From Streptomyces sp. Mut1 (GTDB lineage: Bacteria; Actinomycetota; Actinomycetes; Streptomycetales; Streptomycetaceae): DNA of 64,000 bases. Below the pieces are notes generated by a model. That model searched no databases and was not told the DNA's origin. It was given only the letters and a program-made list of their open reading frames with translations. Within the stretch, counting starts at the first letter, position 1; every line of letters begins with the position of its first letter. Positions 43,856 to 61,074 of the stretch are shown here, in pieces. Where the stretch lies: positions 4,661,501 to 4,725,500 of the forward strand of contig NZ_CP120997.1 in assembly GCF_030719295.1 (NCBI RefSeq), given 5' to 3'. A program made the position numbers and the translations under genes.

Positions 43856-44914
43856 TCAGCCGACCACCGTCCAGTTGTCGTTGCCCGCGAGCAGCGCGGC
43901 CAGGTCGCCCTTGCCGTCCCGCTCCACGGCCGCGTCCAGCTGCTCGGCCATCTTCGTGTCGTACACCGGCCGCTCCACGCTGCGCAGCACCCCGATCGGA
44001 GTGTGGTGCAGGGTGTCCGTGTCGGCGAGCCGCGACAGGGCGAACGCCGTCGTCGGGCTCGGGGCGTGGGCGTCGTGGACGAGGATCTGCGACTTGTTCT
44101 CCTCGGTGACCGCGACCACGTTCAGATCACCGGTCAGCGAGTCCCGTACGACCCCCTTGGCCCCGTCGGCGCCGAAGACGATCGGCTGCCCGTGCTCCAG
44201 GCGGATCACCGCCTCCTGGGCCTGCTCCTTGTCCTTCAGGACCTCGAACGCGCCGTCGTTGAAGATGTTGCAGTTCTGGTAGATCTCCACCAGCGCCGTG
44301 CCCGGGTGGTCGGCGGCGGCGCGCAGCACGCTCGTGAGGTGCTTGCGGTCGGAGTCGATCGTGCGGGCGACGAACGACGCCTCCGCGCCGATCGCCAGGG
44401 ACACCGGGTTGAACGGGGCGTCCAGCGAGCCCATCGGCGTCGACTTGGTGATCTTGCCCAGCTCGGAGGTGGGGGAGTACTGGCCCTTGGTCAGCCCGTA
44501 GATCCTGTTGTTGAACAGCAGGATCTTCAGGTTCACATTGCGGCGCAGCGCGTGGATCAGGTGGTTGCCGCCGATGGACAGCGCGTCGCCGTCCCCGGTG
44601 ACCACCCAGACCGACAGGTCCCGCCGCGAGGTGGCCAGACCCGTGGCGATGGAGGGGGCGCGGCCGTGGATCGAGTGCATCCCGTAGGTGTTCATGTAGT
44701 ACGGGAAACGGGAGGAGCAGCCGATGCCGGAGATGAAGACGATGTTCTCCTTCGCCAGACCGAGGTCGGGCATGAAGCCCTGCACGGCGGCGAGAACCGC
44801 GTAGTCACCGCACCCGGGGCACCAGCGCACTTCCTGGTCGGACTTGAAGTCCTTCATGGACTGCTTCGCCTCGGCCTTGGGCACCAGCTGGAGCAGTTCG
44901 TTCGTCTCAGGCAT
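43856..44914 (-). CDS. korB: 2-oxoacid:ferredoxin oxidoreductase, beta subunit
   Basis: This thiamine-diphosphate subunit of 2-oxoglutarate (or related 2-oxoacid):ferredoxin oxidoreductase helps turn the 2-oxoacid and CoA into acyl-CoA, CO2 and reduced ferredoxin. The 352 residues include the cluster motif CPGCGDY (Cys32, Cys35), GIGCSSR, and the TPP motif starting GDGDALSIGG at 107-116 and ending RRN. The ATG at 44914 overlaps the korA stop by eight bases, with GAGGAGG upstream. No separate ferredoxin gene is seen next to it. Confidence 0.95.
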   Translation of the reverse strand: MPETNELLQLVPKAEAKQSMKDFKSDQEVRWCPGCGDYAVLAAVQGFMPDLGLAKENIVFISGIGCSSRFPYYMNTYGMHSIHGRAPSIATGLATSRRDLSVWVVTGDGDALSIGGNHLIHALRRNVNLKILLFNNRIYGLTKGQYSPTSELGKITKSTPMGSLDAPFNPVSLAIGAEASFVARTIDSDRKHLTSVLRAAADHPGTALVEIYQNCNIFNDGAFEVLKDKEQAQEAVIRLEHGQPIVFGADGAKGVVRDSLTGDLNVVAVTEENKSQILVHDAHAPSPTTAFALSRLADTDTLHHTPIGVLRSVERPVYDTKMAEQLDAAVERDGKGDLAALLAGNDNWTVVG

Positions 44915-46859
44915 CGATGGCCTCCTCAAGAGCTGTCGCCAGCTGCTCGGCCTTGAACGGCATACCGTTGACCTGGTTGTAACTGTGCGCGTCCACCAGG
45001 TACTTGGCGCGGATCAGCGTGGCCAGCTGACCGAGGTTCATCTCGGGGACGACCACCTTGTCGTAACGCTTCAGGACCTCGCCGAGATTCCGCGGGAACG
45101 GGTTGATGTGGCGCAGATGGGCCTGGGCGATGGGGCGTCCGGCGGCGCGCAGCCGGCGCACGGCCGCGGTGATGGGTCCGTACGTCGAACCCCAGCCCAG
45201 CACGAGGGTCTTCGCCTCCGCGGGGTCATCGACCTCCACGTCCGGGACCTCGATGCCGTCCACCTTGGCCTGGCGGGTACGGACCATGAAGTCGTGGTTG
45301 GCGGGGTCGTACGAGATGTTGCCCGTGCCGTCCTGCTTCTCGATGCCGCCGATGCGGTGTTCGAGACCGGGCGTGCCGGGGACGGCCCAGGGGCGGGCGA
45401 GCGTCTGCGGGTCGCGCTTGTACGGCCAGAACACCTCGGTGCCGTCGGCCAGTTCGTGGTTCGGGCCGCCCGCGAACTGGACGCGCAGGTCCGGGAGCTG
45501 GTCCAGCTCCGGGATGCGCCAGGGCTCGGAGCCGTTGGCGAGGTAGCCGTCGGAGAGCAGGAAGACCGGGGTGCGGTAGGTCAGGGCGATCCGGGCCGCG
45601 TCCAGGGCCGCGTCGAAGCAGTCCGCCGGGGTCATCGGCGCCACGATCGGCACCGGGGCCTCGCCGTTTCGCCCGTACATCGCCTGGAGCAGGTCGGCCT
45701 GCTCGGTCTTGGTGGGCAGTCCGGTGGACGGGCCGCCGCGCTGGATGTCGATGATGAGGAGCGGCAGCTCCAGGGAGACCGCGAGGCCGATGGTCTCCGA
45801 CTTCAGGGCGACCCCGGGCCCGGACGTGGTCGTCACGGCGAGCGACCCGCCGAAGGCGGCGCCCAGTGCGGCGCCGATGCCCGCGATCTCGTCCTCGGCC
45901 TGGAAGGTGCGTACGCCGAAGTTCTTGTGCCGGCTCAGCTCGTGCAGGATGTCGGAGGCCGGGGTGATCGGGTACGAACCGAGGTACACCGGCAGGTCGG
46001 CCTGCCGGCCCGCGGCGATCAGCCCGTAGGCCAGGGCGAGGTTCCCCGAGATGTTGCGGTACGTGCCGGTGGGGAAGGCCTGCGAGGCCGGGGCGACCTC
46101 GTAACTGACGGCGAAGTCCTCGGTGGTCTCACCGAAATTCCAGCCGGCCCGGAACGCGGCCACGTTCGCCTCGGCGATCTGCGGCTTCTTCGCGAACTTG
46201 GCGCGAAGGAACGCCTCGGTGCCCTCGGTCGGGCGGTGGTACATCCAGGACAGCAGCCCCAGCGCGAACATGTTCTTGGAGCGCCCGGCCTCCTTGCGGG
46301 AGAGCTCGAACCCCTTCAGCGCCTCGATGGTGAGCGTGGTCAGCGGCACCGGATGGACGTTGTACGCCTCCAGCGAGCCGTCCTCCAGCGGGCTTGTCCC
46401 GTAGCCCACCTTCGCCATCGGCCGCTTGGTGAACTCATCGGTGTTCACGATGATTTCGGCACCGCGCGGCACATCGGCGATGTTCGCTTTCAGCGCCGCC
46501 GGGTTCATCGCCACCAGCACGTTCGGCGCGTCGCCCGGGGTCAGGATGTCGTGGTCGGCGAAGTGCAGCTGGAACGACGAAACCCCCGGCAGGGTGCCTG
46601 CGGGGGCGCGGATCTCGGCGGGAAAATTGGGCAGCGTGGAGAGGTCGTTCCCGAAGGACGCCGTCTCGGAGGTGAACCGGTCACCCGTGAGCTGCATGCC
46701 GTCACCCGAGTCACCCGCGAAGCGGATGATCACCCGGTCCAGACGGCGGACCTCCTTGCCGTTCCCCGTGGCTGCGGACTGGGGGGCACGCGGTCCCCCT
46801 ACGAGCGCGTCACTGGCCTCGTCGGCCTGTTCCGCTGGGCTACTGACCTGGCTGGTCAC
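44907..46859 (-). CDS. korA: 2-oxoacid:ferredoxin oxidoreductase, fused gamma-alpha subunit
   Basis: This 650-residue protein fuses the gamma domain (residues ~40-220, IIRFAGDSGDGMQLTGDRF) to the alpha/pyrimidine domain (from ~255, LPVYLGSYPITPASDILHEL, and the C-terminal transketolase-like part). The YPITPAS motif is typical of oxoglutarate-type enzymes in actinobacteria. With KorB it replaces or supplements 2-oxoglutarate dehydrogenase and gives reduced ferredoxin. The GTG at 46859 has GGGAGG upstream. The N-terminal 40 residues are hydrophilic and variable. It is first in the kor operon. Confidence 0.95.
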   Translation of the reverse strand: MTSQVSSPAEQADEASDALVGGPRAPQSAATGNGKEVRRLDRVIIRFAGDSGDGMQLTGDRFTSETASFGNDLSTLPNFPAEIRAPAGTLPGVSSFQLHFADHDILTPGDAPNVLVAMNPAALKANIADVPRGAEIIVNTDEFTKRPMAKVGYGTSPLEDGSLEAYNVHPVPLTTLTIEALKGFELSRKEAGRSKNMFALGLLSWMYHRPTEGTEAFLRAKFAKKPQIAEANVAAFRAGWNFGETTEDFAVSYEVAPASQAFPTGTYRNISGNLALAYGLIAAGRQADLPVYLGSYPITPASDILHELSRHKNFGVRTFQAEDEIAGIGAALGAAFGGSLAVTTTSGPGVALKSETIGLAVSLELPLLIIDIQRGGPSTGLPTKTEQADLLQAMYGRNGEAPVPIVAPMTPADCFDAALDAARIALTYRTPVFLLSDGYLANGSEPWRIPELDQLPDLRVQFAGGPNHELADGTEVFWPYKRDPQTLARPWAVPGTPGLEHRIGGIEKQDGTGNISYDPANHDFMVRTRQAKVDGIEVPDVEVDDPAEAKTLVLGWGSTYGPITAAVRRLRAAGRPIAQAHLRHINPFPRNLGEVLKRYDKVVVPEMNLGQLATLIRAKYLVDAHSYNQVNGMPFKAEQLATALEEAIDA

Positions 46860-47130: not shown

Positions 47131-47805
47131 TCAGGAGTTCAGATAGGTCAGTACGGCCAGCACCCGCCGGTGGTCGCCCTCGCTCGGGGCCAGCCCCAGC
47201 TTCTGGAAGATGTTGCTGACGTGCTTCTCCACCGCCCCGTCGCTCACCACCAGCTGCTTGGCCACCGCCGAGTTCGTACGCCCCTCCGCCATCAGCCCCA
47301 GCACCTCGCGCTCGCGCGGCGTCAGCCCCGCCAGCACATCCTGCTTGCGGCTGCGGCCCAGCAGCTGCGCCACCACCTCGGGGTCCAGCGCCGTACCGCC
47401 CTGGGCCACCCGGACCACCGCGTCCACGAACTCCCGCACCTCGGCGACCCGGTCCTTCAGCAGATACCCCACACCCCGGCTGGACCCGGCCAGCAGCTCG
47501 GTGGCGTACTGCTCCTCCACGTACTGCGAAAGGACCAGCACCCCGATCCCCGGGTAGTCCCTGCGCAGCCGCACCGCCGCCCGCACACCCTCGTCGGTGT
47601 GGGTCGGCGGCATCCTGACGTCCGCGACCACCACATCGGGCAGCGCGCCCTGCCCGGCGAGGTCGCCGATCGTCTTGATCAGCGCCTCCGCGTCCCCCAC
47701 CCCCGCGACGACGTCGTGCCCGAGATCGGTCAGCAGCCGGGTCAGTCCCTCCCGGAGCAGTACCGAATCCTCGGCGATGACCACACGCACCCTGTCCTCC
47801 ACCAC
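47131..47805 (-). CDS. NarL/LuxR-family response regulator
   Basis: This 224-residue response regulator has a receiver domain with the acidic pocket (AED at 11-13), phospho-acceptor Asp62 (VVADVRMP) and a conserved Lys in YLLKDRV. A LuxR-type helix-turn-helix follows (LTPREREVLGLMAEGRTNSA...VVSDGAVEKHVSNIF). The GTG at 47805 is preferred, with GGGGGA upstream; the next codon is also GTG, so the start is uncertain by one residue. It is the last gene after two histidine kinases and the first before korAB, all on one strand. Confidence 0.9.
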   Translation of the reverse strand: MVEDRVRVVIAEDSVLLREGLTRLLTDLGHDVVAGVGDAEALIKTIGDLAGQGALPDVVVADVRMPPTHTDEGVRAAVRLRRDYPGIGVLVLSQYVEEQYATELLAGSSRGVGYLLKDRVAEVREFVDAVVRVAQGGTALDPEVVAQLLGRSRKQDVLAGLTPREREVLGLMAEGRTNSAVAKQLVVSDGAVEKHVSNIFQKLGLAPSEGDHRRVLAVLTYLNS

Positions 47806-47962
47806 GACGCTGATTCCCCCACCTGCTTGCTCGCTGTTGCGATCCGTATGCCGTCCAGCATCCCAGTAACGGCAGTGACGTCGCGAGTGCGCGCGGGGTT
47901 GACCGCGCCCCGGGGGAGGCTCCCCCCGGGGCGGTACGGCCGACGAGCGGCGAAATCTCCGG

Positions 47963-49318
47963 TCAGCCGCGCCAGGGCAGCTCGGCGGTGACCTTGGTCG
48001 GGCCGCCCACCGGGGAGTCGACCACCAGGACACCGTCCACGGCCTCCAGCCGCTCGGTCAGCCCGGCGAGACCGCTGCCCCCCGCCAGGTCGGCGCCCCC
48101 GCGCCCGTCATCGGTGACCTGGAGCAGCAGCCGGTCCTCCGTGCGCCACACGTCGACCGAGGCGCGGGTGGCGGCGGAGTGCTTGCTGACGTTCTGGAGG
48201 AGCTCGGAGACCGTGAAGTACGCGATGCCCTCGATGGCCTGGGCGGGACGGGACGCCAGGTCGACCTCGACCGTGACGGGGACCGTGCACCGGGAGGCGA
48301 CGGCGGAGAGGGCGGCGTCCAGGCCGCGGTCGGTGAGAACGGCCGGGTGGATGCCGCGGGCCAGGTCGCGCAGCTCCTGGAGGGCGACCTTGACCTCCCC
48401 GTGCGCCTCGTCGACCATCTTCGCCGCGGCCTCCGGGTCGTCGGTCAGCTTCTCCTTCGCGAGCCCCAGGTCCATGGCGAGGGCGACGAGCCGGGCCTGC
48501 GCCCCGTCGTGCAGATCGCGCTCGATGCGGCGCAGGTCGGCGGCGGCCGTGTCCACCACGACACCACGGTCCGACTCCAGCTCCGTGACGCGCTCCGCCA
48601 GCCGGGACGGGCTCAGCAGCCCGGCCACCAGCAGCCGGTCGACCGAGGCCAGCCCCCGGATCACCCACGGCGACAGCAGGACGACGCCCAGCCCCATCAC
48701 GCTGGTGAGGGCCAGCTCGGCGGGCGAGTCCAGATAGACCTCGTGCGTGGCGTCCCCGTACAGCTGAATCCCCTGGACCCCGGCGTGCGAGGGGACGGCC
48801 CAGTGCCACAGCGGGTAGGTGAGGGCCGCCCAGCCCCAGGACCACAGCGTCAGCGAGACGCAGAACGCGAAGACCGCCCACGGGAAGTGCAGCAGCGAGT
48901 AGAGCAGGTGGCGCCAGGACACCCCGCTCTTCAGGACCGCCCCGACCCAGGACATCAGCCCGCCGGTCCGGCCGCGCACCGGCGCCGGGTCGGCCACGTC
49001 CAGCCCCAGCAGGGCCCGCGCCCGGGTCCGCTCCAGCATCCCGAAGCCCCGGCACATGACCAGGCCGGCCGCCAGGACCGGAATCCCCAGGAAGGTGACG
49101 AGCAGCCCCGCGCCCAGCGAGACCATGGTGATCGAGAAGGCGAAGAGCACGATGCTGATCGGCAGGCTCAGCATCAGATAGCAGAACTCGCGCCAGGTCC
49201 TGGCCTCCAAGGGGGCCCGCAGCGCGGCCGGCAGGACGCGCCGCGTCGCCGGGCGGTTGCCGGAACCGCTTCCCGACCGCTGAGGGTCCCGTGTGTCCGG
49301 TCCGTATGCCGTGGCCAT
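47963..49318 (-). CDS. Sensor histidine kinase (HisKA_3), copy 1
   Basis: This 451-residue membrane kinase has a hydrophobic N-terminal region with about four to five helices, including LMLSLPISIVLFAFSITMVS and WAVFAFCVSLTLWSWGWA, then a HisKA_3 dimerisation domain with the phospho-His in RIERDLHDGAQARLVALAM, and a HATPase domain (DDGRGGADLAGGSGLAGL). There is no large extracellular sensor domain, so it is of the intramembrane-sensing type. The ATG at 49318 is preferred; an in-frame ATG eight codons earlier is possible. It follows copy 2 after 175 bases and precedes the response regulator. Confidence 0.88.
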   Translation of the reverse strand: MATAYGPDTRDPQRSGSGSGNRPATRRVLPAALRAPLEARTWREFCYLMLSLPISIVLFAFSITMVSLGAGLLVTFLGIPVLAAGLVMCRGFGMLERTRARALLGLDVADPAPVRGRTGGLMSWVGAVLKSGVSWRHLLYSLLHFPWAVFAFCVSLTLWSWGWAALTYPLWHWAVPSHAGVQGIQLYGDATHEVYLDSPAELALTSVMGLGVVLLSPWVIRGLASVDRLLVAGLLSPSRLAERVTELESDRGVVVDTAAADLRRIERDLHDGAQARLVALAMDLGLAKEKLTDDPEAAAKMVDEAHGEVKVALQELRDLARGIHPAVLTDRGLDAALSAVASRCTVPVTVEVDLASRPAQAIEGIAYFTVSELLQNVSKHSAATRASVDVWRTEDRLLLQVTDDGRGGADLAGGSGLAGLTERLEAVDGVLVVDSPVGGPTKVTAELPWRG

Positions 49319-49357
49319 GGGTTCCGTCCGTTTCTTCTGCATCCGGTGGTCTGGGGC

Positions 49358-49391
49358 TGTGCGTGCGTGCTGTCTGTGCGTGCGCGCTGTC
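49358..49391. repeat. 17-bp tandem repeat between the two kinase genes
   Basis: Two 17-base units (49358-49374 and 49375-49391) differ at one base, both rich in alternating GT and GC and starting TGTGCGTGC; a partial third unit follows. They lie in the 175-base gap between kinase copies. A GGGG-TTTT-CCCC hairpin at 49469-49480 is also in this gap, just after the copy 2 stop. Confidence 0.75.
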
Positions 49392-49493
49392 TGTTCGTGC
49401 CGGCTTCTGGTTCAAGAGTGCTGGGTCGGGCGCCGGCACACCATGAGGACGGTCTCCGTCTCGGGCCGGGGGTTTTCCCCACCCCTGCGGTTC

Positions 49494-50696
49494 CTACGCC
49501 GCACGACCGCCGCCGGCCGCGCTCCTCCCGGTCTCCCGGTCGCGCCACGGCAGCTCGGCGGTGACGGTCGTCGGGCCGCCAACGGGGGAGTCCAGGACGA
49601 AGACCCCGTCGACCGCGTCCAGCCGCTCCGCGAGCCCCGCCATCCCCGTACCGCCGTCCATCGAGGCCCCGCCGCGCCCGTCGTCGCCGACCTGGAGCAG
49701 CAGCCGGTCGCCCGTGCGCCACACGTCGACCGAGGCGCGGGTGGCGGCGGAGTGCTTGCTGACGTTCTGGAGGAGCTCGGAGACCGTGAAGTACGCGATG
49801 CCCTCGATGGCCTGCGCCGGACGCCCCGGCAGGTCCACCCGCACGGTGACCGGGACGGTGCACCGGGAGGCGATGGCGGAGAGGGCGGCGTCCAGGCCGC
49901 GGTCGGTGAGGACGGCCGGGTGGATGCCGCGGGCCAGGTCGCGCAGCTCCTGGAGGGCGACCTTGACCTCGCCGTGCGCCTCGTCGACCATGCGGGCCGC
50001 CGCCTCCGGGTCGTCGGTCAGCTTCTCCTTGGCCAGACCGAGACCCATGGCGAGGGCGACGAGCCGGGCCTGCGCCCCGTCGTGCAGATCGCGCTCGATG
50101 CGGCGCAGGTCGGCGGCGGCCGTGTCGACCACCACACCCCGGTCCGATTCGAGTTCGGCGATGCGGCGTTCCAGGTCGTCGGAGGGGGAGAGCAGACCGC
50201 GCACCATGGCCCGGTCCGCGTTGGCCATGAGCCGCGACGTATAGGGGAGCGCCGGCCACAGGACGAGGCACAGCAGCGTCACCACGAAGGTGAGGATGCC
50301 CCACGGCAGCCGTACGAACGAGTACAGCGCCGACCGCCAGGCCACCGGGTCCATCAGGCTCGACCACAGCCAGGCGAAGAACCCCTCGTCCCGGCGGCCC
50401 AGGGCCGCCGGACTCGGCTCGTCGACCCGGACCCCCAGCAGCTTCCGCGCCCGTTTCCGCTCGGCCCGCCCGATGAGCCGGGAACCCTGGAGCCCGGCGG
50501 CGAGCAGCGGCAGACCGACGACGGTGACCGCGAGGCCCACACCGATGGCGATCATCAACACTGTGTAAACAAAACCGACGACCGCCATCGGAAAGTTGCT
50601 GAGGAGGTGCGCGACCTCCTTCCACGTCCACCGGCCGAAGGCGAAGCGGACAGGAGGCGGCCCGTCGTTGGAGGGCACCTGGGGGCTCATGGTCAT
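49494..50696 (-). CDS. Sensor histidine kinase (HisKA_3), copy 2
   Basis: This 400-residue kinase is a tandem paralogue of the gene downstream. The N-terminal membrane part differs (LLSNFPMAVVGFVYTVLMIA, LPWGILTFVVTLLCLVLW) but the HisKA_3 and HATPase parts are almost the same, down to long runs of identical DNA. The same phospho-His segment LHDGAQARLVALAM and VWRTGDRLLLQVGDDGRGG are present. The ATG at 50696 follows GGCAGG. Its promoter region faces the second nuo cluster. Two different membrane sensors with a shared kinase core and one response regulator suggest two inputs to one output. Confidence 0.88.
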   Translation of the reverse strand: MTMSPQVPSNDGPPPVRFAFGRWTWKEVAHLLSNFPMAVVGFVYTVLMIAIGVGLAVTVVGLPLLAAGLQGSRLIGRAERKRARKLLGVRVDEPSPAALGRRDEGFFAWLWSSLMDPVAWRSALYSFVRLPWGILTFVVTLLCLVLWPALPYTSRLMANADRAMVRGLLSPSDDLERRIAELESDRGVVVDTAAADLRRIERDLHDGAQARLVALAMGLGLAKEKLTDDPEAAARMVDEAHGEVKVALQELRDLARGIHPAVLTDRGLDAALSAIASRCTVPVTVRVDLPGRPAQAIEGIAYFTVSELLQNVSKHSAATRASVDVWRTGDRLLLQVGDDGRGGASMDGGTGMAGLAERLDAVDGVFVLDSPVGGPTTVTAELPWRDRETGRSAAGGGRAA

Positions 50697-50790
50697 ACGA
50701 CCAGCCTGCCGGGCGGGGCCTGTGGATGCCATGGGGCTCGTGGGTGAGGGCGAAGTAGGGATATCCCCACCGTGTCCCGCCCAACCCCGT

Positions 50791-50885: not shown

Positions 50886-51356
50886 GTGGCCGACGTGACG
50901 GACCTTCCGGGCGCGGCATACCTGCCGGGCCCGTCGGAACTTCCGGACGTGGCGCACCCGCCGGGACCGGCGCCCGCCGTGCTCGCCTCGGACTACTTCC
51001 ACAGCTACTCGGTCGTCGGACTGCTCGCCGTCGTCGGCGTCCTGTTCGTCGCGGTCGCCTTCGGGGCCGGCCGGCTGCTGCGCCCCGTGGTCCCGACGCC
51101 GGAGAAGCTCCTCACCTACGAGTGCGGCGTCGACCCCGTGGGGGAGGGCTGGGCACACACCCAGGTCCGCTACTACGTCTACGCCTTCCTGTACGTGATC
51201 TTCGCCGTCGACTCGATCTTCCTCTTCCCCTGGGCGACCGTCTTCGCCGCACCCGGATACGGCGCGACGACGCTCGTGGAAATGTTCATCTTCCTCGGTT
51301 TCCTGGCCGTGGGACTGCTCTACGCATGGAAGAAGGGCGTCCTCGAATGGACGTGA
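50886..51356 (+). CDS. nuoA2: NADH-quinone oxidoreductase subunit A, second cluster
   Basis: This membrane subunit links the Q module to the pump arm. The GTG at 50886 is preferred to that at 50841 because GAGGGGG lies just before it; the protein is then 156 residues with a 25-residue variable N-terminus. Three helices are seen, and the family loop [20 protein letters not shown] with its conserved Cys is intact. [16 protein letters not shown] and [19 protein letters not shown] are typical. The stop overlaps the nuoB2 start by 10 bases. Confidence 0.93.
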
Positions 51357-51988
51357 CGAGCCCGTCGTCCGCCGAAGCGGGGGCCGAACCCGCCGCCGTA
51401 CCCACGTTCCTCCCGGAACCCAAGCGCCTGGGCGTACTGTCCCGGCTCGCACCGGAGCCGATGAAGGTGGTCCTCAACTGGGGCCGCCGCTACAGCCTCT
51501 GGGTCTTCAACTTCGGACTCGCCTGCTGCGCCATCGAGTTCATCGCCGCGTCCATGGCCCGCCACGACTTCATCCGGCTGGGCGTCATCCCGTTCGCGCC
51601 CGGCCCCCGCCAGGCCGACCTCATGATCGTCTCCGGCACGGTGACGGACAAGATGGCCCCCGCGGTGAAGCGCCTGTACGAGCAGATGCCCGAGCCCAAG
51701 TACGTCATCTCCTTCGGCGCCTGCTCCAACTGCGGCGGCCCGTACTGGGACTCGTACTCGGTGACGAAGGGCGTCGACCAGATCATCCCGGTCGACGTCT
51801 ACGTACCCGGCTGCCCGCCCCGGCCCGAGGCCCTGCTCCAGGGCATCCTGAAGCTCCAGGAGAAGATCGCCCGCGAGTCGCTGGGCGAGCGCTACGCGAC
51901 GGCCGCGGGCGACCGCCCCTCCACGGCGGCCCTGCGCAGCGGCCTGGTGACCCCGCCGGCCGCTCCGGGGGAGGGCGAGGAGAAGTGA
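51347..51988 (+). CDS. nuoB2: NADH-quinone oxidoreductase subunit B, second cluster
   Basis: This subunit holds the last 4Fe-4S cluster (N2), which gives electrons to quinone. The 213 residues keep the adjacent pair Cys60-Cys61 ([10 protein letters not shown]), Cys126 (GACSNCGG) and Cys156 (VPGCPPRPE). The N-terminal 25 residues are variable. The ATG at 51347 lies inside the nuoA2 end and the stop overlaps the nuoC2 GTG. NuoB normally packs against NuoD, for which there is no gene in this cluster. Confidence 0.95.
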
Positions 51989-53391
51989 CCGCCGAGACCT
52001 CCTTCGACCGGCTGCCGGACGACGTCACGGAACTCTTCGGCGACGACGCCACCGCGGAGCGGGCCTACGACCTGCTGACCGTCGACGTCCCGCCCGCCGC
52101 CTGGATCACCGCCCTGGAAACGGCGCGGGACGCACTCGGCTGCACCTACTTCGACTGGCTGAGCGCGGTCGACGAGCCGGGCACCGGCTTCCGCGTCTGC
52201 GTCCACGTCGCCGCGCTCCCCTCGGCGGGAACCGGCGTACGCCGGCTGCTGATCCGTACGACCGTCCCGCACGAGGCGGCCGTCCTGCCGACCGCGATCG
52301 GCGTCTACGCCGGAGCCGCCTGGCACGAGCGCGAGACCCACGAGATGTTCGGCATCGACTTCGCGGACCACCCGCACCTCGTCCCGCTGCTCCTGCCCGA
52401 GGGCTTCGAGGGCCACCCCCTGCGCAAGGACTTCGTCCTGGCCGCCCGCGTGGCGAAGGCGTGGCCGGGCGCGAAGGAGCCGGGCGAGTCGGAACACGGC
52501 GGCCCGAAGCGCCGCACGATGCTGCCCCCGGGCGTCCCCGACCCGAACGAGTGGGGCCCCCTCAAGGGCCAGCTCCCCCCGGCCCCGTCCCGCCCCGCCC
52601 GCACACCGAGGGCCGCGGGCGACCGCCCCCCGAGGCGAACCCGCACAGCGGGCGAGGCGACACCGACGACCCCGGGAACGGCGGAACAGAGCGCTGCCCC
52701 GCCGCGCCGCACCCGCACCGCGAGCGAGGCCACACCCGGCGCCCCCGCGGCCCCGCCCCGCCGCAGCCGCAGCGCATCGCAGGGCTCGGCGAGCCAGCGC
52801 GGCGCGGAGGCGCCGGCGGACACGGACGCGGCCGCCGACGCGGAGCCCACCGCGGACGGCGGCGCGACGGCGGCATCGGACGCACCGTGGCACAACGCCC
52901 GCCCGGCGTTCACGGAGGAACCGCCGGAGGGCGAGGAGTCTTCGGAGAGCGGCACCTCCAAGCCTCTCCGGCGTTCGGAGGGCGGTGCCTCCGAGCCCTC
53001 CCGGCGTTCGGAGGCCGCCACATCCCAGCCTTCGGGGAGCGGCGGCACATCCCAGCCCTCCCAGCCTTCGGAGAGCGGCGGCACATCTCAGCCCCTCCGG
53101 CGTTTGAGGAGCGGGGGTCCGGGGGCGGAGCCCCCGGTTCGGGAAGGGGCGGGTAGGGGAGAAGCCCAGCGCAGCGAACCCCCCACCACCCCCGAAGCCG
53201 CACCGGACACCGACCCCGCACCGGACACCGAAGTCGCACCGGACACCGACCCCGCACCCGACACCGACCCCGCACCGGACACCGAAGTCGCACCGGACAC
53301 GGACCCCACCGCCCACGAAGCCGCGCCCAACACCACCCCCGCCCCGGACCCCACCCCCGACAACACCCCCACCGGAGGCGATCCCGAGTGA
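51985..53391 (+). CDS. nuoC2: NADH-quinone oxidoreductase subunit C with a long low-complexity tail, second cluster
   Basis: The first ~155 residues are a normal 30-kDa-subunit domain ([41 protein letters not shown]). The remaining ~310 residues, out of 468, have no counterpart in ordinary NuoC: they are rich in Pro, Ala, Arg, Ser, Thr and Glu, with internal repeats (SGGTSQP blocks and six [12 protein letters not shown] units). Part of the tail is encoded by DNA that matches a dispersed Streptomyces intergenic repeat. The GTG start overlaps nuoB2 and the stop overlaps nuoH2, so the tail is truly in the operon. No NuoD domain is fused. Confidence 0.9.
52958..53165 (+). repeat. Dispersed Streptomyces-type intergenic repeat inside nuoC2
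   Basis: Variants of a CCTCTCCGGCGTT(C/T)G-GAG unit recur in this stretch, ending in the core starting CAGCCCCTCCGGCGTTTGAG at 53089 and running through a GGGGGC/GCCCCC hairpin to GGGAAGGGGCGGGTAGGGG. From memory, this core is a common repeat between genes of Streptomyces genomes. Here it is read in frame as part of NuoC2. Confidence 0.7.
53119..53137 (+). terminator. Terminator-like hairpin within nuoC2
   Basis: CCGGGGGC (53119-53126) pairs perfectly with GCCCCCGG (53130-53137) over a 3-base loop. It lies in the repeat-derived part of nuoC2, upstream of nuoH2-N2. It could pause or partly stop transcription or translation, lowering the pump-arm genes relative to A, B and C, but this is not shown. 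Confidence 0.4.
53200..53307 (+). repeat. 18-bp tandem repeat encoding [12 protein letters not shown]
   Basis: Six 18-base units run from 53200 to 53307 within nuoC2. They encode [30 protein letters not shown] and APDTDP. The pattern suggests duplication of a two- or three-unit block by slippage. Confidence 0.9.
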
Positions 53392-54356
53392 ACGACGTAC
53401 TGGACGTCGCCCTCCGCATCGTCATCGTCTTCGCCGTCTTCATGGTCCTCCCCCTCGTCGTCGGCCAGACCGAACACAAGGTGATGGCCCACATGCAGGG
53501 CCGCCTGGGCCCGATGTACGCGGGCGGCTTCCACGGCTGGGCCCAGCTCGTCGCGGACGGCGTGAAGTTCGCGCAGAAGGAAGACATCGTCCCGGCCGGC
53601 GCCGACCGCAAGGTCTTCCGCCTCGCGCCGGCCGTCGCGCTGCTCCCGTACCTGCTGGTGATCGTCGCGATCCCGGTCGGCCCGGGGGAGGGCGCGGTAG
53701 GCCAGGTCATCGACGCGGGCATCTTCTTCGTGCTCGCGGTGATGGGCGTCGGCGTACTCGGCTCGCTGATGGCCGGCTGGGCGTCGGCCAACAAGTTCTC
53801 CCTGCTCGGCGGCCTCCGCACCGCCGCCCAACTGCTCGCGTACGAACTGCCGATGCTGCTCGCCGCCGCCTCGGTGGCGATGGCGGCCGGCACGGTCTCG
53901 CTGCCCGGCATCCTCGACGCGTTCGAGTGGTGGTGGCTGCCGTGGCAGATCATCGGCGCGCTGGTCTTCTTCGTGGCCGGGCTCGCCGAACTCCAGCGCC
54001 CGCCCTTCGACATGCCGGTCGCCGACTCGGAGATCATCTTCGGTGCGTACACCGAGTACACCGGCCTCCGCTTCGCGCTGTTCCTGCTCGCCGAGTACGC
54101 CGGCATCGTCGTGCTGTGCGGGCTGACCACCGTCCTGTTCCTCGGCGGCTGGCACGGCCCGATGGGCGCCGACGGGCTCGGCTGGGTCTGGACGCTCCTG
54201 AAGACCGGCATCCTCGCCTTCGTCGTCATCTGGCTGCGCGTGAGCTACCCGCGCCTGCGCGAGGACCAGTTGCAGAAGCTCGCCTGGACCACACTCATTC
54301 CGCTCGCTCTCGCGCAGATCGCGCTCACCGGCATCGTGAAGGTGGCGATCATCTAG
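53388..54356 (+). CDS. nuoH2: NADH-quinone oxidoreductase subunit H, second cluster
   Basis: This membrane subunit is 322 residues with about eight helices and the family motifs [31 protein letters not shown] and [20 protein letters not shown]. It lacks the long C-terminal tail of the first NuoH. The GTG start overlaps the nuoC2 stop, and the stop TAG shares its G with the start of nuoI2. No nuoD or remnant lies before it. Confidence 0.95.
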
Positions 54357-54949
54357 TGCCCCCGATCCCCGGCTCAGGCCTGGCCAAGGGTCTCGCCGTC
54401 ACCCTGCGGACGATGACGAAGAAGACCGTCACCGCCCAGTACCCGGACGTGCAGCCCGAACTCCCGCCCCGCTCCCGGGGCGTCATCGCGCTGTTCGAGG
54501 AGAACTGCACGGTCTGCATGCTGTGCGCCCGTGAGTGCCCCGACTGGTGCATCTACATCGACTCCCACAAGGAGACCGTGCCCGCCGCGGCCCCCGGCGG
54601 GCGCGAGCGCAGCCGCAACGTGCTGGACCGCTTCGCGATCGACTTCTCGCTCTGCATGTACTGCGGCATCTGCATCGAGGTGTGCCCGTTCGACGCGCTG
54701 TTCTGGTCGCCGGAGTTCGAGTACGCGGAGACGGACATCCTGGAACTCACCCACGAGCGCGACAAGCTCCGCGAGTGGATGTGGACCGTTCCGGAGCCGC
54801 CCGCGCTCGACCCGCGCGCCGAGGAACCGAAGGAGATCGCCGCCGCCCGCAAGACGGCCGACAAGCTCCGCGCCCAGCGGGAGCAGGAAGCCGCGCAGGA
54901 GCAGGAAGCCCAGCAGGAGCAGGAAGCCGCGCAGGAGGCCCAGGAGTGA
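54356..54949 (+). CDS. nuoI2: NADH-quinone oxidoreductase subunit I, second cluster
   Basis: This two-cluster ferredoxin-like subunit is 197 residues. Cluster ligands are Cys51, 54, 57, 61 and Cys100, 103, 106, 110, all present. In complexes without the NADH module this subunit is the point where ferredoxin can donate electrons. The GTG at 54356 overlaps the nuoH2 stop. The last ~25 residues are a Gln/Glu/Ala repeat ([20 protein letters not shown]), a probable coiled coil or spacer. Confidence 0.94.
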
Positions 54950-55545
54950 TCACCGCCCCCGCCCTCGCCGCGGCCACCGGCCACCACCCCGGCTTCCTCT
55001 CCCCGACCGGGGTCGAGATCGCCTTCGTCCTCGTCGGCATCGCCACCCTCGGCGCGGCCCTGGTGACCGTCACGACCAGGCAGCTGGTGCACGCCGCCCT
55101 CTGGCTGATCGTGGCGCTCGGCGGCCTCGCCGTCGAATACCTCCTGCTCACCGCCGAGTTCATCGCCTGGGTGCAGGTACTGATCTACGTGGGTTCCGTC
55201 GTCGTCCTCCTCCTGTTCGGCCTGATGCTCACCCGGGCCCCCATCGGCCGCTCCCCGGACGCCGATTCGGAGAACCGCCGGGCCGCCCTCGCGGTGGCCG
55301 TCGCCGCCGCCGGCACCCTCGTCTGGGTCGTCGTGGACGCCTTCCGCACCACCTGGATCGAGCTGGACGGGCCCGCCCAGGGCTCCACCGAGGCCACCGG
55401 CTCCTTCCTCTTCCGGAACTGGGTGCTCCCCTTCGAAGCACTCTCCGTCCTGCTGCTCGCCGCCCTGGTCGGCGCGATCGTCCTGTCCCGCAAGGGCCGC
55501 GCGAGCACCAACCCGGCCGGCCCGCACCGAGAGGACAAGAGCTGA
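54946..55545 (+). CDS. nuoJ2: NADH-quinone oxidoreductase subunit J, second cluster
   Basis: This pump-arm membrane subunit is 199 residues with five helices and the NuoJ segment [20 protein letters not shown]. The GTG at 54946 overlaps the nuoI2 stop (GTGA); the longer frame upstream is a shadow. It lacks the long charged tail of the first NuoJ. A moderately hydrophilic loop ([20 protein letters not shown]) precedes the last helix. Confidence 0.93.
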
Positions 55546-55970
55546 TGCACCTCGCCTATCCCGCCGTGCTCGCCGCCCTCCTCTTCTGCACCGGGCTGTA
55601 CGGAGTCCTCGCCCGCCGCAACGCGATCCTCGTCCTGATGTCCGTCGAGCTGATGCTCAACGCCGTCAACCTCAACCTGGTCGCCTTCGACGTCTGGCTC
55701 CGCGACACCCTGCACTCCGGCCAGGCCCTCACCCTCTTCACCATCGCCATCGCGGCGGCGGAGATCGGCATCGGCCTGGCGATCGTCCTCGCCGTGTACC
55801 GCAACCGCGGCACCTCCGACATCGACCGCCTCCGCGACACCGCCGAGACCGACGAGGCCGAAACGGTCCCGGCCGGCGACGACGAGGGCGACGACCCCAC
55901 GGGCACCGCCCCCGAAGACCAGGCCACTGCTGCGGCAGGGAAGGCAAAGAAGGCAGAGGCCACCGCGTGA
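55545..55970 (+). CDS. nuoK2: NADH-quinone oxidoreductase subunit K, second cluster
   Basis: This three-helix subunit has both pump glutamates: Glu35 in [12 protein letters not shown] and Glu73 in [11 protein letters not shown]. At 141 residues it is about 40 longer than usual because of an acidic C-terminal tail ([20 protein letters not shown]) ending in a Lys/Ala patch. The ATG at 55545 shares a base with the nuoJ2 stop, with GAGGACAAG upstream; the long frame before it is a shadow. Confidence 0.94.
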
Positions 55971-57967
55971 CCACCACGACCCTCGCCGTCCTCGTCCCCC
56001 TCCTCCCGTTCCTCGGAGCCGCGGCCGGCCTCCTCACCGGCCGCACCGCCCCCGGCTACGTCCGGCCGCTCGCCGTCCTGCCCTCCCTCGCCTCCCTCGT
56101 CCTCGCGGCCGTCGTCGCGGCACGCCAGGGCGGCGGCCGGGCCATCGACGCCGCGACCCAGCTCACCCCCACCGGCTCCGTCCCGATCGACCTCGCGCTG
56201 CACCTCGACGGCTTCGCCGTCCTCGTCGCCGTGCTGGTCGCCCTCGTCGCGAGCTGCGTGCAGATCTACTCGACCGCCTACCTGCGCGACGACCCCCGCT
56301 ACCCCTCGTACGCGGCCCTCGTCTCCCTCTTCACCTCCGCGATGCTGCTCGTCGTCTACTCCGGCGACCTGATGGTGCTCCTGGTCGGCTGGGAGATCAT
56401 GGGCATCTGCTCCTACTTCCTGGTCGGCCACTACTGGGAGACGCCCGAGGCCCGCGCCGCCTCCCTCAAGGCGTTCCTGGTCACCAAGCTCGGCGACGTC
56501 CCCTTCCTCATCGGCCTGTTCGCCCTCGCCGCCGACACCGGCACCTTCCGCATCACCGGCATCCTGGGCGCCGTCGCCCACGACGGCCTCGATCACCCCA
56601 CCCTCATCGCGCTCCTCCTGCTCGCCGGGGTCGCCGGCAAGTCCGCGCAGTTCCCCCTGCACACCTGGCTGCCCGACGCCATGGCCGGCCCCACCCCCGT
56701 CTCCGCCCTGATCCACGCGGCGACGATGGTCGCCGCCGGCATCTACTTCGTGGCCCGGCTCCTCCCCGTCTTCGCGGCATCCGGCGCCGCCCTCGTCGTC
56801 CTCGCCGTGATGGCGGCCGTCACGATGATCGGCTCCGGGCTCGCCGCGCTCGCCCAGGACGACATCAAGCGCGTCCTCGCCTACTCGACCATCGGCCAGC
56901 TCGGCTACATGTCCGGCGCCCTGGCCGTCGGCGACCGCGGGGCCGCCGTCTTCCACCTCGTCTCGCACGGTGCGTTCAAAGCCGTCCTCTTCCTCGCGGC
57001 GGGCGTCGTCATCCACGCCGCCGGCACCAACTCACTGGCCGCCATGTCCCGGATGAGCGGCCTGGCCCGCCGCATCCCCGACGCCTACTGGACGATGACC
57101 GTCGCCCTGCTCGCCCTGGCCGCCATCCCCCCGTTCGCCGGCTTCTTCTCCAAGGAAGCCGTCCTCGTCGCCGCCGAGCACACCGCCCTCGGCGACCGGC
57201 ACGTCGCCCCGGCCGCCGCCGGCTGGACGGTCCTCGTCGCCGGGCTCCTGGCCGCCGTGCTCACCGCCGCCTACGCCACCCGGCTCTGGCTCCTGGCCTT
57301 CCGGGGCCGGGGCGCCGAGGCCCCCGACCACGGCAGGCAGCCCGTCGCCATGACCGCCGTCCTGTGGGTGCTGGCCATCCCCACCATCGGGCTCGGGCTG
57401 ACCGTCGGCGTGATCGGCGACTGGTTCGACGGCCACCGCCTCACCCCGTCCCTGACCACCGCCGTGCTCTCCACCGGCGTCGGCCTCGTCGGCGGCATCG
57501 TCACCTACGGGGCCTGGCGCCACACCACGGCACTCGCCGCCCGCGTCCCCATGGGCTCGGTCGTCGCCCACCCCGACGCGGAACCCGCCCTGGTCGAGAT
57601 CGAGGCCATCGAGGCCCGTACCGCCGCCTACGGCACGGCCGGTGACGCCCCCGACCCCGCCGACCCCGGCCGCCTGCTGCTCGGCCCCCTCCACCGCCAC
57701 GCGGCCACCGGCTTCCACCTGGACGCCCTGTACGCGGCGCTGTTCGTCCGGCCCGTCCAGGCGGCGGCACGCCTCGTCCGCTTCCTGGACCGCGAGGTCG
57801 TCGACACCTACGTACGCGGCTCCGCCCTCGGCGCACGCCGGCTCGGCACCGCCGTCCGCCGCGCACAGACCGGCAACGTGCAGACCTACGTCAGCGCACT
57901 GCTCGCCGGTTCCCTGGTCCTGGCGGTCGCCGCCGTCGTCTTCGCCAACGTCAACGCGGGGTCCTGA
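55967..57967 (+). CDS. nuoL2: NADH-quinone oxidoreductase subunit L, second cluster
   Basis: This distal antiporter-like pump subunit is 666 residues. The helix-5 glutamate is Glu143 ([15 protein letters not shown]), and [20 protein letters not shown] and [18 protein letters not shown] are intact, so proton pumping is expected. The C-terminal lateral-helix region is present. The GTG start overlaps the nuoK2 stop. nuoM2 begins three bases after its stop. Confidence 0.96.
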
Positions 57968-57970
57968 GCC

Positions 57971-59545
57971 GTGATCGATATCAGCGCGTCCGTGATGCAG
58001 TTCCTTCTGGCGTTCGTCGTCGTCGCCCCGCTCATCGGCGCCGTCGCGGCCCTGCTCCCGGCCCCGCCCGGACTGAAGGGCCGCGGCCCCGACCAGGCCG
58101 TGCTCCGCCACGGTGTGACCGTCACCGGGGTCATCCTCCTGGCGACGCTCGTGCTGGCCGCCGGCTTCGACCACGACCACCCGTCGAAGATGCAGGCCAC
58201 CACCGACATCAGCTGGATCCCGGCGCTGGATGTGCGCATCCACCTCGGCATCGACGGCATTTCGCTCCCCCTGCTCGTACTGACCGCGCTGCTGACCTTC
58301 CTCTGCGCGCTCTACAGCTACTTCAAGATGCCCTCCGGCCCCTCCCCGAAGGCCTTCGTCGCGCTGATCCTCGTCCTGGAGTCCGGCACCCTCGCCACCT
58401 TCGCCGTCCTCGACCTGATCCTGTTCTTCCTGGCGTTCGAGATGGTGCTCATCCCGATGTACTTCCTCATCGCCCGCTGGGGCGGTGCGCAGAGGCAGGC
58501 GGCCGCCTGGAAGTTCATCCTCTACACACTGCTCGGCTCGGTCGTCATGCTGCTGGGCCTGCTCCTCATCGGACTGAAGAGCGGCACCTTCGACATGGTG
58601 GCACTCGCCACTGACAACGGCCGGGGTCTCACCTCGTCCGTGCAGGTCATCGCGGTTCTCGCGATCGGTGTCGGTCTCGCGGTGAAGACCCCGATGTGGC
58701 CGCTGCACAGCTGGCTGCCCGACGCCCACACCGCCGCCCCGACGGTCGGCTCCGTCCTCCTCGCGGGCGTCCTGCTGAAGATGGGCACGTACGGGTTCGT
58801 CCGGATCCTGCTCCCGGTCGCCCCCGACGGCATGCACACCTTCGCCCCGTACCTCGCCGCCTTCGCCGTCGCCGGCATCATCTACGGGTCGCTCGCCTGC
58901 CTGGCGCTGGCCCGCCCCGGCGCCAAGGGCGACCTGAAGCGGCTCATCGCCTACTCCTCCGTCGGCCACATGGGCTTCGTCCTCCTCGGCATCGCGAGCA
59001 TGACCCCCACCGGGGTCAACGGCGCGCTCTTCGCCAACATCGCCCACGGACTCATCACCGGCCTGCTGTTCTTCCTGGTCGGCGCGGTCAAGGACCGGTA
59101 CGGCACCGCCGACCTCGACACCCTCGCCGGGGCCACGGGCGCCGCGCTCTACGGCCGCGCGCCCCGCCTCGGCGGCCTCCTCGCGTTCGCCGCGATCGCC
59201 TCGCTCGGCCTGCCCGGACTCGCCGGCTTCTGGGGCGAGATGCTCGCCCTGTTCGGCGCGTTCGACCCCGCCGAAGGGCTCAGCAGGCCCGCCTTCCTGA
59301 CGTTCATGTCGATCGCCGCGTTCGGCACCCTGCTCACCGCCGCGTACCTCCTGATCGTGGTCCGCCGCGTCTGCATGGGCGCCACGCGCGAGGAACCGCA
59401 GCCGATCGCCGACGTGCAGAGCTACGAATTCGCCGCCTGGACCCCCCTCGCGGCCCTCACCGTCCTCGCCGGCCTCTGGCCCGCCGTCCTCCTCGGCCTC
59501 ACCGACCCGGCCGTGCAGAAGCTCCTCGCAGGAGGCAAGTCGTGA
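57971..59545 (+). CDS. nuoM2: NADH-quinone oxidoreductase subunit M, second cluster
   Basis: This antiporter-like subunit is 524 residues with about 14 helices. Glu157 (LAFEMVLIPMYFLIARW) matches the essential helix-5 glutamate; TPMWPLHSWLPDAHTAAP and GDLKRLIAYSSVGHMGFVLL are the half-channel motifs. The start is a GTG, three bases after the nuoL2 stop. The stop overlaps the nuoN2 GTG. Confidence 0.96.
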   Translation: MIDISASVMQFLLAFVVVAPLIGAVAALLPAPPGLKGRGPDQAVLRHGVTVTGVILLATLVLAAGFDHDHPSKMQATTDISWIPALDVRIHLGIDGISLPLLVLTALLTFLCALYSYFKMPSGPSPKAFVALILVLESGTLATFAVLDLILFFLAFEMVLIPMYFLIARWGGAQRQAAAWKFILYTLLGSVVMLLGLLLIGLKSGTFDMVALATDNGRGLTSSVQVIAVLAIGVGLAVKTPMWPLHSWLPDAHTAAPTVGSVLLAGVLLKMGTYGFVRILLPVAPDGMHTFAPYLAAFAVAGIIYGSLACLALARPGAKGDLKRLIAYSSVGHMGFVLLGIASMTPTGVNGALFANIAHGLITGLLFFLVGAVKDRYGTADLDTLAGATGAALYGRAPRLGGLLAFAAIASLGLPGLAGFWGEMLALFGAFDPAEGLSRPAFLTFMSIAAFGTLLTAAYLLIVVRRVCMGATREEPQPIADVQSYEFAAWTPLAALTVLAGLWPAVLLGLTDPAVQKLLAGGKS

Positions 59546-61074
59546 TCACGGCATCCGAAAACGCCTCCGGCGTGGCAAGCCTCGTCCAGTCCGTCGACTG
59601 GCTCGCCCTCGCGCCCCCCGTCGCCGTCGCGGCCGTCGCCGTCGTCATCCTGGTCGCCGACCTCTTCGTCCCCGAGGCCCGCAAACCGCTCCTCGGCCAC
59701 GGAGCCGTCGCCGGTCTCGTCGCCGGGCTCGCCCTGATCATCCCGCTCCACGAAGGCGACCGCTCCACCTTCTGCCTCACCACCGGCAGCCACGCGTGCA
59801 GCTACACCGCCGACCACTTCACCCTGGTCATCCAGGCCCTCGTCCTCGGCGGCGCCCTGCTCACCGCACTGCTCTCCATCGGCGACACCCGCAAGCTCCC
59901 GGCCGGCGAATACTGGTTCCTGCTGCTGTCGTCCGCCGCGGGCGCCGCGCTCCTGCCCGCCGCCCGTGACCTGGCCACCCTCGTCATCGCCCTCGAAGTC
60001 GCCTCGCTGCCCGCGTTCGCCCTCGTCGGCATCAAGCGCGGCGACCGGCGCTCCTCCGAGGCCGCGCTGAAGTTCTTCCTGTCCTCCGTGACCGCGACCG
60101 CCGTGATGCTCCTCGGCGTCAGCTTCGTCTACGCGGCCACCGGCACCCTCCACCTCACCGACCTCGCCGGCGCGCTCGACGACGTACCCGGCCGGCTCTC
60201 CACGCTCGCCGGGGCGGGCGTCGCCCTGACCCTGGTCGGCTTCGCCTTCAAGACGGCCGCCGCGCCCTTCCACTTCTGGGTCCCCGACACCTACGTCGGC
60301 GCCCCCCTCCCGATCGCCGCCTACCTCTCGGTCGTCGGCAAGGCGGTCGGCTTCACCGGCCTCATCCTCGTCACCGTCATCGCCTTCCCGGCGTACGCGG
60401 ACGTCTGGGGCCCCGCCCTCGCCGTACTCGCCGCGCTCACCATGACCGTCGGCAACGTCGCCGCGCTGCGCCAGAGCGCCACCCGCGCCCGCAGCGCCGT
60501 ACGCCTGCTCGCCTGGTCCTCCGTCGCCCAGGCCGGCTACCTCCTGGTGCCGATCGCCGCCGCCGCGTACGCCGGGGACCGCCGGATCGGGTCCACCGTC
60601 GCATACGCCCTGATGTACGCCGTCGTGAACCTCGGCGCGTTCGCGGTCGCCGCCCTCGTCGCCCGTACCCACCCCGGCAACCGCCTCGCCGACTACCGCG
60701 CGCTGTACGCGACCCGGCCGCTCGCCGCCCTCGCGCTGGCCTTCTTCCTGCTCTGCCTGGCCGGGCTGCCGCCGGGCATCATCGGCCTCTTCGCCAAGGT
60801 CACGGTCTTCTCCGCGGCCGTCGACGCCGGACTGGGCTGGCTCGCCGTCGTCATGGCCGTCAACGTGGTCATCGCGCTCTACTACTACCTCCAGTGGACC
60901 GCCGCCCTGTTCCGCGCACCCGAGGCGGACAGCACGCACCAGCCGGCGCCCGCTGCCCGGCACCGCACCCCGGCAACCCTCACCGCCGCGATCGTCCTCA
61001 CCGCCGTCGCCGGCATCGTCCTGTCGGGCGCCCCGCAGACCGTGCTCAGATTCGCCGCCGTCAATCTGTTCTGA
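59542..61074 (+). CDS. nuoN2: NADH-quinone oxidoreductase subunit N, second cluster
   Basis: This is the last gene of the second cluster, 510 residues. Glu152 (VIALEVASLPAFALVG) and FKTAAAPFHFWVPDTYVGAP are present, as in active NuoN. The GTG at 59542 overlaps the nuoM2 stop, with GGAGGC upstream; the long upstream frame is a shadow of nuoM2. The mechanosensitive channel gene follows after 119 bases. Confidence 0.95.
   Translation: MITASENASGVASLVQSVDWLALAPPVAVAAVAVVILVADLFVPEARKPLLGHGAVAGLVAGLALIIPLHEGDRSTFCLTTGSHACSYTADHFTLVIQALVLGGALLTALLSIGDTRKLPAGEYWFLLLSSAAGAALLPAARDLATLVIALEVASLPAFALVGIKRGDRRSSEAALKFFLSSVTATAVMLLGVSFVYAATGTLHLTDLAGALDDVPGRLSTLAGAGVALTLVGFAFKTAAAPFHFWVPDTYVGAPLPIAAYLSVVGKAVGFTGLILVTVIAFPAYADVWGPALAVLAALTMTVGNVAALRQSATRARSAVRLLAWSSVAQAGYLLVPIAAAAYAGDRRIGSTVAYALMYAVVNLGAFAVAALVARTHPGNRLADYRALYATRPLAALALAFFLLCLAGLPPGIIGLFAKVTVFSAAVDAGLGWLAVVMAVNVVIALYYYLQWTAALFRAPEADSTHQPAPAARHRTPATLTAAIVLTAVAGIVLSGAPQTVLRFAAVNLF

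Follow-up and report, generated by a model that had tools for sequence, protein, structure and literature searches.

A second complex I gene cluster in Streptomyces and its distant nuoD gene: a probable 11-subunit pump with an altered quinone site

The nuo2 cluster

The stretch of DNA analysed here (the window) comprises 64,000 nucleotides of Streptomyces sp. Mut1 contig NZ_CP120997.1 (C1:4661501-4725500 of an 8.0-Mb genome) and contains a second gene cluster for respiratory complex I, nuo2. Ten intact genes in the order A-B-C-H-I-J-K-L-M-N run along the + strand at window positions 50886-61074 (Table 1). The cluster has no nuoD, and our main concern is a second nuoD gene far from it, nuoD2, which is likely to supply the missing subunit.

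Family models match nine of the nuo2 subunits (A, B, C, H, I, J, K, L and M). Together with alignments and tblastn searches, they bear out the first-pass annotation, which had been made from the DNA letters alone and described a ten-gene cluster without D, E, F or G. Its description of genes that overlap end to end holds for neighbours sharing 1-10 nt but not for L2 and M2, which are separated by a 3-nt gap. The 4-nt overlap between C2 and H2 leaves no gap for nuoD, as that annotation had said, and no remnant is present either: tblastn of the window with D1, D2, E1, F1 and G1 gave three chance-level matches, the best at E 0.11. The same search rejects a nuoD remnant hidden within the NuoC2 tail.

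The pump glutamates (K2 Glu35/Glu73, L2 Glu143, M2 Glu157 and N2 Glu152) stand where they had been placed. The cluster cysteines are likewise kept, NuoB2 retaining its Cys pair, Cys126 and Cys156 and NuoI2 having nine cysteines. Ratios of nonsynonymous to synonymous substitution (dN/dS) lie between 0.03 and 0.49 across the ten genes (NG86 method, against six Streptomyces relatives; for C2 on the NuoC domain alone), in agreement with the earlier claim of selection. These comparisons confirm the cluster as real, intact and, to judge by its substitution rates, under purifying selection. As the nuo2 proteins are 29-51% identical to their main-operon copies, they appear to be an old paralogue set rather than a recent duplication. 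A published account describes Streptomyces nuo2 as lacking C, D and L (PMC9239103), whereas C2 and L2 are plainly present here; that account calls the function of nuo2 unclear, as the first-pass annotation did.

Table 1. Genes of the nuo2 cluster and its upstream neighbours in the window.
Feature	Position	Strand	Family match or remark
korB-like, beta subunit (thiamine pyrophosphate domain)	43856..44929	-	PF02775
korA-like, alpha subunit of 2-oxoacid:ferredoxin oxidoreductase	44907..46859	-	PF01855, PF01558, PF17147
Two-component system: response regulator and two PF13796 sensor kinases	47131..50732	-	between korAB and nuo2
nuoA2	50886..51356	+	PF00507, E 2.4e-32
nuoB2	51347..51988	+	PF01058; N2 ligand Cys kept; Thr98 at the Nqo6-Arg83 position
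nuoC2	51985..53391	+	PF00329 at residues 33-155; NuoC domain in about the first 190 of 468 residues, repetitive tail after
nuoH2	53388..54356	+	PF00146, E 1.6e-99
nuoI2	54356..54949	+	ligands for two [4Fe-4S] clusters
nuoJ2	54946..55545	+	PF00499
nuoK2	55545..55970	+	PF00420
nuoL2	55967..57967	+	PF00361, PF00662
nuoM2	57971..59545	+	TIGR01972, E 1.8e-165
nuoN2	59542..61074	+	37% identity to NuoN1 (alignment); channel motifs

A second nuoD gene and its lineage

A family search returned two nuoD genes in the genome, nuoD1 in the main operon and the full-length nuoD2 at C1:3394993-3396135, 1.3 Mb from nuo2, which encodes 380 residues without a stop. The first-pass annotation had proposed this genome-wide search and had named a co-expressed second nuoD as evidence against its reading; the presence of a second nuoD is now established. 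NuoD2 was found in 118 of 121 Streptomyces genomes (one copy is cut at a contig end), and the three genomes without it are drafts of 460-1300 contigs.

The gene is not new to the literature. PMC3765725 lists nuoA2, B2, D2 and H2-N2 with nuoD2 set apart, and PMC8388888 gives the same separate listing for S. ambofaciens; the Streptomyces nuo2 of these papers (SCO4599-SCO4608, with nuoD2) is the cluster described here. The name is therefore already in print, without explanation in the accessible parts of these papers, which hold no link between NuoD2 and MidA, the N2 residue switch, Tyr87, KorAB or an in-cluster nuoD. Our literature search, whose coverage lacked most subscription journals, returned no paper tying Streptomyces NuoD2 to MidA or KorAB.

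To place nuoD2, we used nuo2 loci from across the phylum, 24 within the Streptomyces class and 20 in other classes. As far as the contigs reach, 15 of the 20 other-class loci read A-B-C-D-H-I-J-K-L-M-N. The D protein of these 15 has 46-60% identity with NuoD2 and 34-38% with NuoD1, and it shares with NuoD2 a tryptophan at the quinone site, an arginine beside cluster N2 and a missing segment (15/15 for each). The remaining five loci, all of one family (f55), lack D in the cluster as Streptomyces does; a NuoD2-type gene lies elsewhere in each of these five genomes, complete in four and in pieces at contig ends in the fifth. Within the Streptomyces class none of the 24 loci carries D, E, F or G, both C2 and H2 being visible in 23.

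A tree was built from 15 of 113 displaced NuoD2 sequences, 15 in-cluster and four main-operon sequences, with the f55-type displaced genes left out. The displaced proteins group in a single clade (100/100) that falls within the in-cluster ones, and the departure of nuoD from the cluster therefore appears to be the derived state. As far as sequence can tell, nuoD2 is shown to belong to the same lineage as the in-cluster nuoD of other classes, and the tree implies a departure from the cluster in the lineage of the Streptomyces class, where the gene now lies near midA. Because other-class clusters carry D between C and H, nuo2 can be read as an 11-subunit complex I whose D gene has moved out, and this move would explain how nuo2 can do without an internal nuoD.

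Co-occurrence supports this reading. Among 394 genomes of the class, where absence means no match at E<=1e-70 for NuoH2 and none at E<=1e-75 for NuoD2, NuoD2 occurs in 148 and NuoH2 in 96, and 94 of these 96 have both. The two exceptions are 72% and 80% complete, and NuoH2 is found in all 40 Streptomyces of the sample. NuoD2 is likely to assemble with the nuo2 products.

The sampled genomes also hold some irregular copies. One genome (G153) has two NuoH2 copies (65% and 61%; loci L142 and L143), and in L143 a nuo2 A-B-C-H run adjoins NuoJ-N genes closer to the main-operon type. Extra low-similarity NuoH-, NuoD-, NuoB- and NuoL-like matches, possibly of the membrane-bound hydrogenase type, were seen at locus L148 and in genomes G131, G139 and G316.

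The N2 residue switch, the quinone site and MidA

Beside cluster N2 the same space is filled by an arginine that comes from the NuoD subunit in Yarrowia and from the NuoB subunit in Thermus, with a threonine opposite in the partner, and the Yarrowia changes R121M and R121K abolish both the N2 signal and quinone reductase activity (PMC8042128). With the numbering checked against the Thermus chains, here and for the quinone site, NuoB1/NuoD1 has the Arg/Thr state and NuoB2/NuoD2 the opposite one, Thr/Arg. NuoB2 has the threonine in 42 of 42 cluster loci and NuoD2 the arginine in all 111 covered rows; NuoB1 Arg and NuoD1 Thr are found in Mut1 and in three of three relatives. A complex of NuoB2 with NuoD1 would bring two threonines together and have no arginine at N2. 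The pairing therefore strongly suggests two separate complexes rather than one hybrid, and a single cell with two complex I enzymes in opposite switch states makes hybrid assembly directly testable.

Of the three ways out that the first-pass annotation had offered for a cluster without nuoD, the switch and the lineage speak against borrowing NuoD1. The choice of another partner appears right, since nuoD2 is present, shares the in-cluster lineage and matches NuoB2 at the switch. The third way, unusual quinone reduction, is partly upheld by the tryptophan considered next, so that its interpretation as a whole is partly supported.

Mechanistic work generally treats the quinone-binding tyrosine as central. 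This residue, Tyr87 in Thermus Nqo4 numbering, is tryptophan in 112 of 112 covered NuoD2 rows (Trp78 in Mut1). The same holds for each of 80 named loci, which come from Streptomyces, Kitasatospora, Actinomadura, Kribbella, Micromonospora, Janibacter and others; these were picked by patterns that included the quinone hairpin and the arginine, so their 80/80 for those two features is biased, whereas the tryptophan was not among the patterns. The motif counts exclude G140, whose NuoD2 is partial, from all three motifs and G212, with hairpin and arginine uncovered, from those two. Tyr87 is a ligand of the quinone head group (PMC8042128), and its replacement throughout NuoD2 points to a natural complex I without the quinone-binding tyrosine. 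The other half of the site, His38, is kept in Mut1 (H29), in 54 of 54 covered genomes with NuoH2 and in 45 of 53 without it. A segment of NuoD1 spanning about 40 alignment columns is further missing from NuoD2-type proteins, and in the PExE motif the Glu of NuoH1 is replaced in NuoH2 by Val, Ile or Leu (24/24 and 20/20 loci).

The gene 56 nt upstream of nuoD2, on the same strand, belongs to PF02636, the MidA/NDUFAF7 family (61.5 bits, cut-off 23.3). NDUFAF7 dimethylates Arg85 of human NDUFS2 (PMC3829151), and the arginine mark also occurs in Paracoccus but not in E. coli (PMC3750175). The target arginine is present in NuoD2 and is threonine in NuoD1. The arrangement resembles that of mitochondrial complex I with its NDUFAF7/MidA in having a MidA-family enzyme, the target arginine in an HRG motif, arginine on the NuoD side and threonine on the NuoB side; it differs in that nuo2 has no module for oxidising reduced nicotinamide adenine dinucleotide (NADH) and NuoD2 has Trp instead of Tyr.

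In the class sample, 49 of 55 NuoH2 genomes, Mut1 included, have MidA within the nuoD2 locus, as do 37 of 54 genomes that lack NuoH2. Four of the remaining six NuoH2 genomes were tested and all four have MidA elsewhere. Genome-wide tests of 15 of the 17 remaining genomes without NuoH2 found MidA in two; as 13 lack it, we rejected the idea that MidA is universal in NuoD2 genomes without NuoH2. Among 61 tested of the 246 genomes without NuoD2, three have MidA, each a draft in 380-450 contigs. Within the Streptomyces class, MidA hardly occurs outside NuoD2 genomes. A MidA-like gene was also seen directly after nuoN2, at the end of an 11-gene nuo2 cluster, in one other-class genome (L167:4111-5100).

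The electron donor and competing readings

We read nuo2 and the distant nuoD2 as encoding a respiratory pump of 11 subunits whose quinone site is altered and whose donor is probably not NADH, and put the probability of this reading at about 0.72. No NuoE, NuoF or NuoG was found in the cluster by tblastn of the window (a second NuoE or NuoG was not searched for genome-wide), in line with the first-pass annotation, and the single NuoF of the genome lies in the main operon. Similar enzymes are known: the NuoABCDHIJKLMN complex of Bacillota (Desulfitobacterium) and the EFG-less complex I of Anaerosomatales (Coriobacteriia) have the same subunits and no NuoEFG, and their donor is unsettled, with ferredoxin proposed (PMC11238625, PMC9686372). 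Unlike in those organisms, nuoD here lies 1.3 Mb away beside midA and a full 14-subunit operon is also present. The Trp at the Tyr87 position of NuoD2 may be a further difference.

The neighbourhood of nuo2 is suggestive of a ferredoxin donor. A korAB pair (43856-46859) lies 4.0 kb upstream of nuoA2 with an AbrC-like two-component system in between, the place that AbrC1/2/3 occupy in S. coelicolor (PMC9739823). Divergent from nuo2, korA stands at 91-2779 bp in 6 of the 22 class loci that cover nuoA2 or nuoB2. S. avermitilis probably has the same layout, as the numbering of its korA, sav_4877 (PMC5107987), fits with that of nuoL2/M2, sav4888-4889 (PMC3765725). With korAB this close to nuo2, and beside it in some relatives, reduced ferredoxin feeding NuoI2 is our best guess, which offers a candidate physiological donor for the 11-subunit enzyme, a question that remains according to PMC11238625. 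MidA would methylate Arg55 of NuoD2 during assembly. The KorAB-type neighbour would make reduced ferredoxin, and electrons would enter NuoI2 at its two [4Fe-4S] clusters, move on to the N2 cluster of NuoB2 and reduce menaquinone at the site with Trp78 for Tyr, while the antiporter-like subunits pump protons.

An improbable alternative, though the strongest of those weighed, is that NuoD2 completes nuo2 and the main-operon NuoE/F/G dock onto it, giving a 14-subunit, NADH-oxidising isoform with a shared module. NuoC2 and NuoI2 are intact and NuoF is encoded only once, as such sharing would have it. However, none of the 20 other-class loci carries E, F or G, although 15 are complete 11-gene sets for the part covered, and the segment kept by NuoD1 is missing from every in-cluster NuoD2-type copy. 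Less probable still is a hybrid in which nuo2 borrows NuoD1, and perhaps NuoE/F/G, to form a second NADH-oxidising isoform. A hybrid machinery was proposed when expression of nuo and nuo2 was seen to change in opposite directions in the gbn mutant (PMC9239103), and the lone NuoF and the distance of about 39 kb between the two clusters fit it; against it stand nuoD2 itself, whose lineage sits inside nuo2 in other classes, the Thr/Thr state at N2 without the arginine that Yarrowia cannot lose, and the NuoD1 segment that NuoD2 lacks. That nuo2 is silent or decaying is very improbable, for although absence is common outside the genus, with NuoD2 often found without NuoH2 and one NuoH2 in pieces (L250), the dN/dS values, the catalytic residues and the constant presence in Streptomyces speak against it, as do RNA sequencing that suggests a single operon with a conserved antisense RNA (PMC3765725) and levels of nuo2 products in S. 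coelicolor that greatly exceed those in S. lividans (PMC9739823).

Several observations weigh against the pump we favour or against parts of it. With tryptophan for Tyr87, the complex might reduce quinone poorly or not at all. Gene neighbourhood is weak evidence for a donor: korA adjoins nuo2 in only the six class loci named above and in 0 of 20 other-class loci, and although most of the remaining 16 class loci cover at most 3.4 kb of upstream sequence, one with 7.5 kb (L143) has no korA. Methylation does not seem to be needed by the whole lineage, because 11 of 15 other-class genomes with in-cluster D have no MidA and keep the arginine. NuoD2 must also have some use beyond the full complex, as it outlives NuoH2 in 54 of the 148 NuoD2 genomes of the class sample.

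Of these 54 genomes, 52 have a NuoH by family search (47 exactly one), 50 show a main-type NuoD and 49 have at least two NuoB matches, the second copy not being typed in each. The NuoH2 tables leave out four Streptomyces without a NuoH2 test. Six loci of 6-6.5 kb from NuoH2-negative genomes (L254-L259) hold open nuoB2-nuoC2-nuoI2 frames, in which all N2 cysteines, the threonine and at least nine NuoI cysteines are kept (6/6). No A2, H2 or J2-N2 was seen in them, and L255 and L259 each have the end of a main-type NuoN at their edge. Directly divergent from B2-C2-I2 is korAB in two of the six (L257, L258), and korA is divergent also in three further loci of NuoH2-negative genomes (L251-L253). 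An AtuA-family gene takes the place of korAB, again divergent, at L254:963-2687 (by Pfam, with the AtuA ferredoxin-like domain) and at L256:3460-5244 (by eye). Locus L250, where B2, C2 and I2 are open and the NuoH2 match is in pieces, shows a recent loss in progress. G187 is probably a draft gap rather than a loss, since nuoC2 runs off its contig (L251); in G136, too, the contig stops shortly past nuoC2 (L252).

The quinone hairpin of NuoD2, GPQHP[SA]THGVLR, is altered in 48 of 53 covered rows without NuoH2 and in 0 of 54 with it; the tryptophan and the arginine stay in the genomes without NuoH2 too. We dropped the statistical claim that the hairpin is kept only with NuoH2 (54/54 against 5/53): the tree needs only four NuoH2 state changes, which leaves three to four independent pairs and no significance, and the association is a pattern from few events.

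A wider reading, which we hold tentatively at slightly less than even odds, is that the whole lineage reduces quinone with Trp for Tyr87 and is fed by KorAB-type ferredoxin, and that much of the Streptomyces class has lost the membrane subunits and keeps an arm-less quinone module, NuoB2-C2-D2-I2, as a soluble enzyme for electron transfer, with MidA in most and korAB or AtuA genes beside it in some.

Four further candidates were rejected. The only match to a Rex site in the window is weak and lies at 30657, not at nuoA2. Inspection by eye of the H2-I2 gaps of some relatives showed no common gene on the same strand, the only one searched, that might act as a conserved extra electron input. Absence of the NuoB residue equivalent to bovine Arg77 does not mark nuo2, since two of three main-operon copies from relatives are without it as well. 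The NuoA2 change from FDxE to FAxD does not mark the whole lineage, as it occurs in 20 of 21 class loci and 0 of 20 other-class loci.

Three minor features complete the picture. At L134:5235-10354 nuoH2 and nuoI2 stand about 5 kb apart with other sequence between them. The in-frame, low-complexity tail of nuoC2 spans about 280 codons (window 52450-53391) with 18-nt tandem repeats, and part of it presumably resembles a dispersed Streptomyces repeat. On the 3' side of nuoN2 lies an MscL-like channel gene (window 61195-61658), the C-terminus of which, read by eye, has the look of a zinc ribbon.

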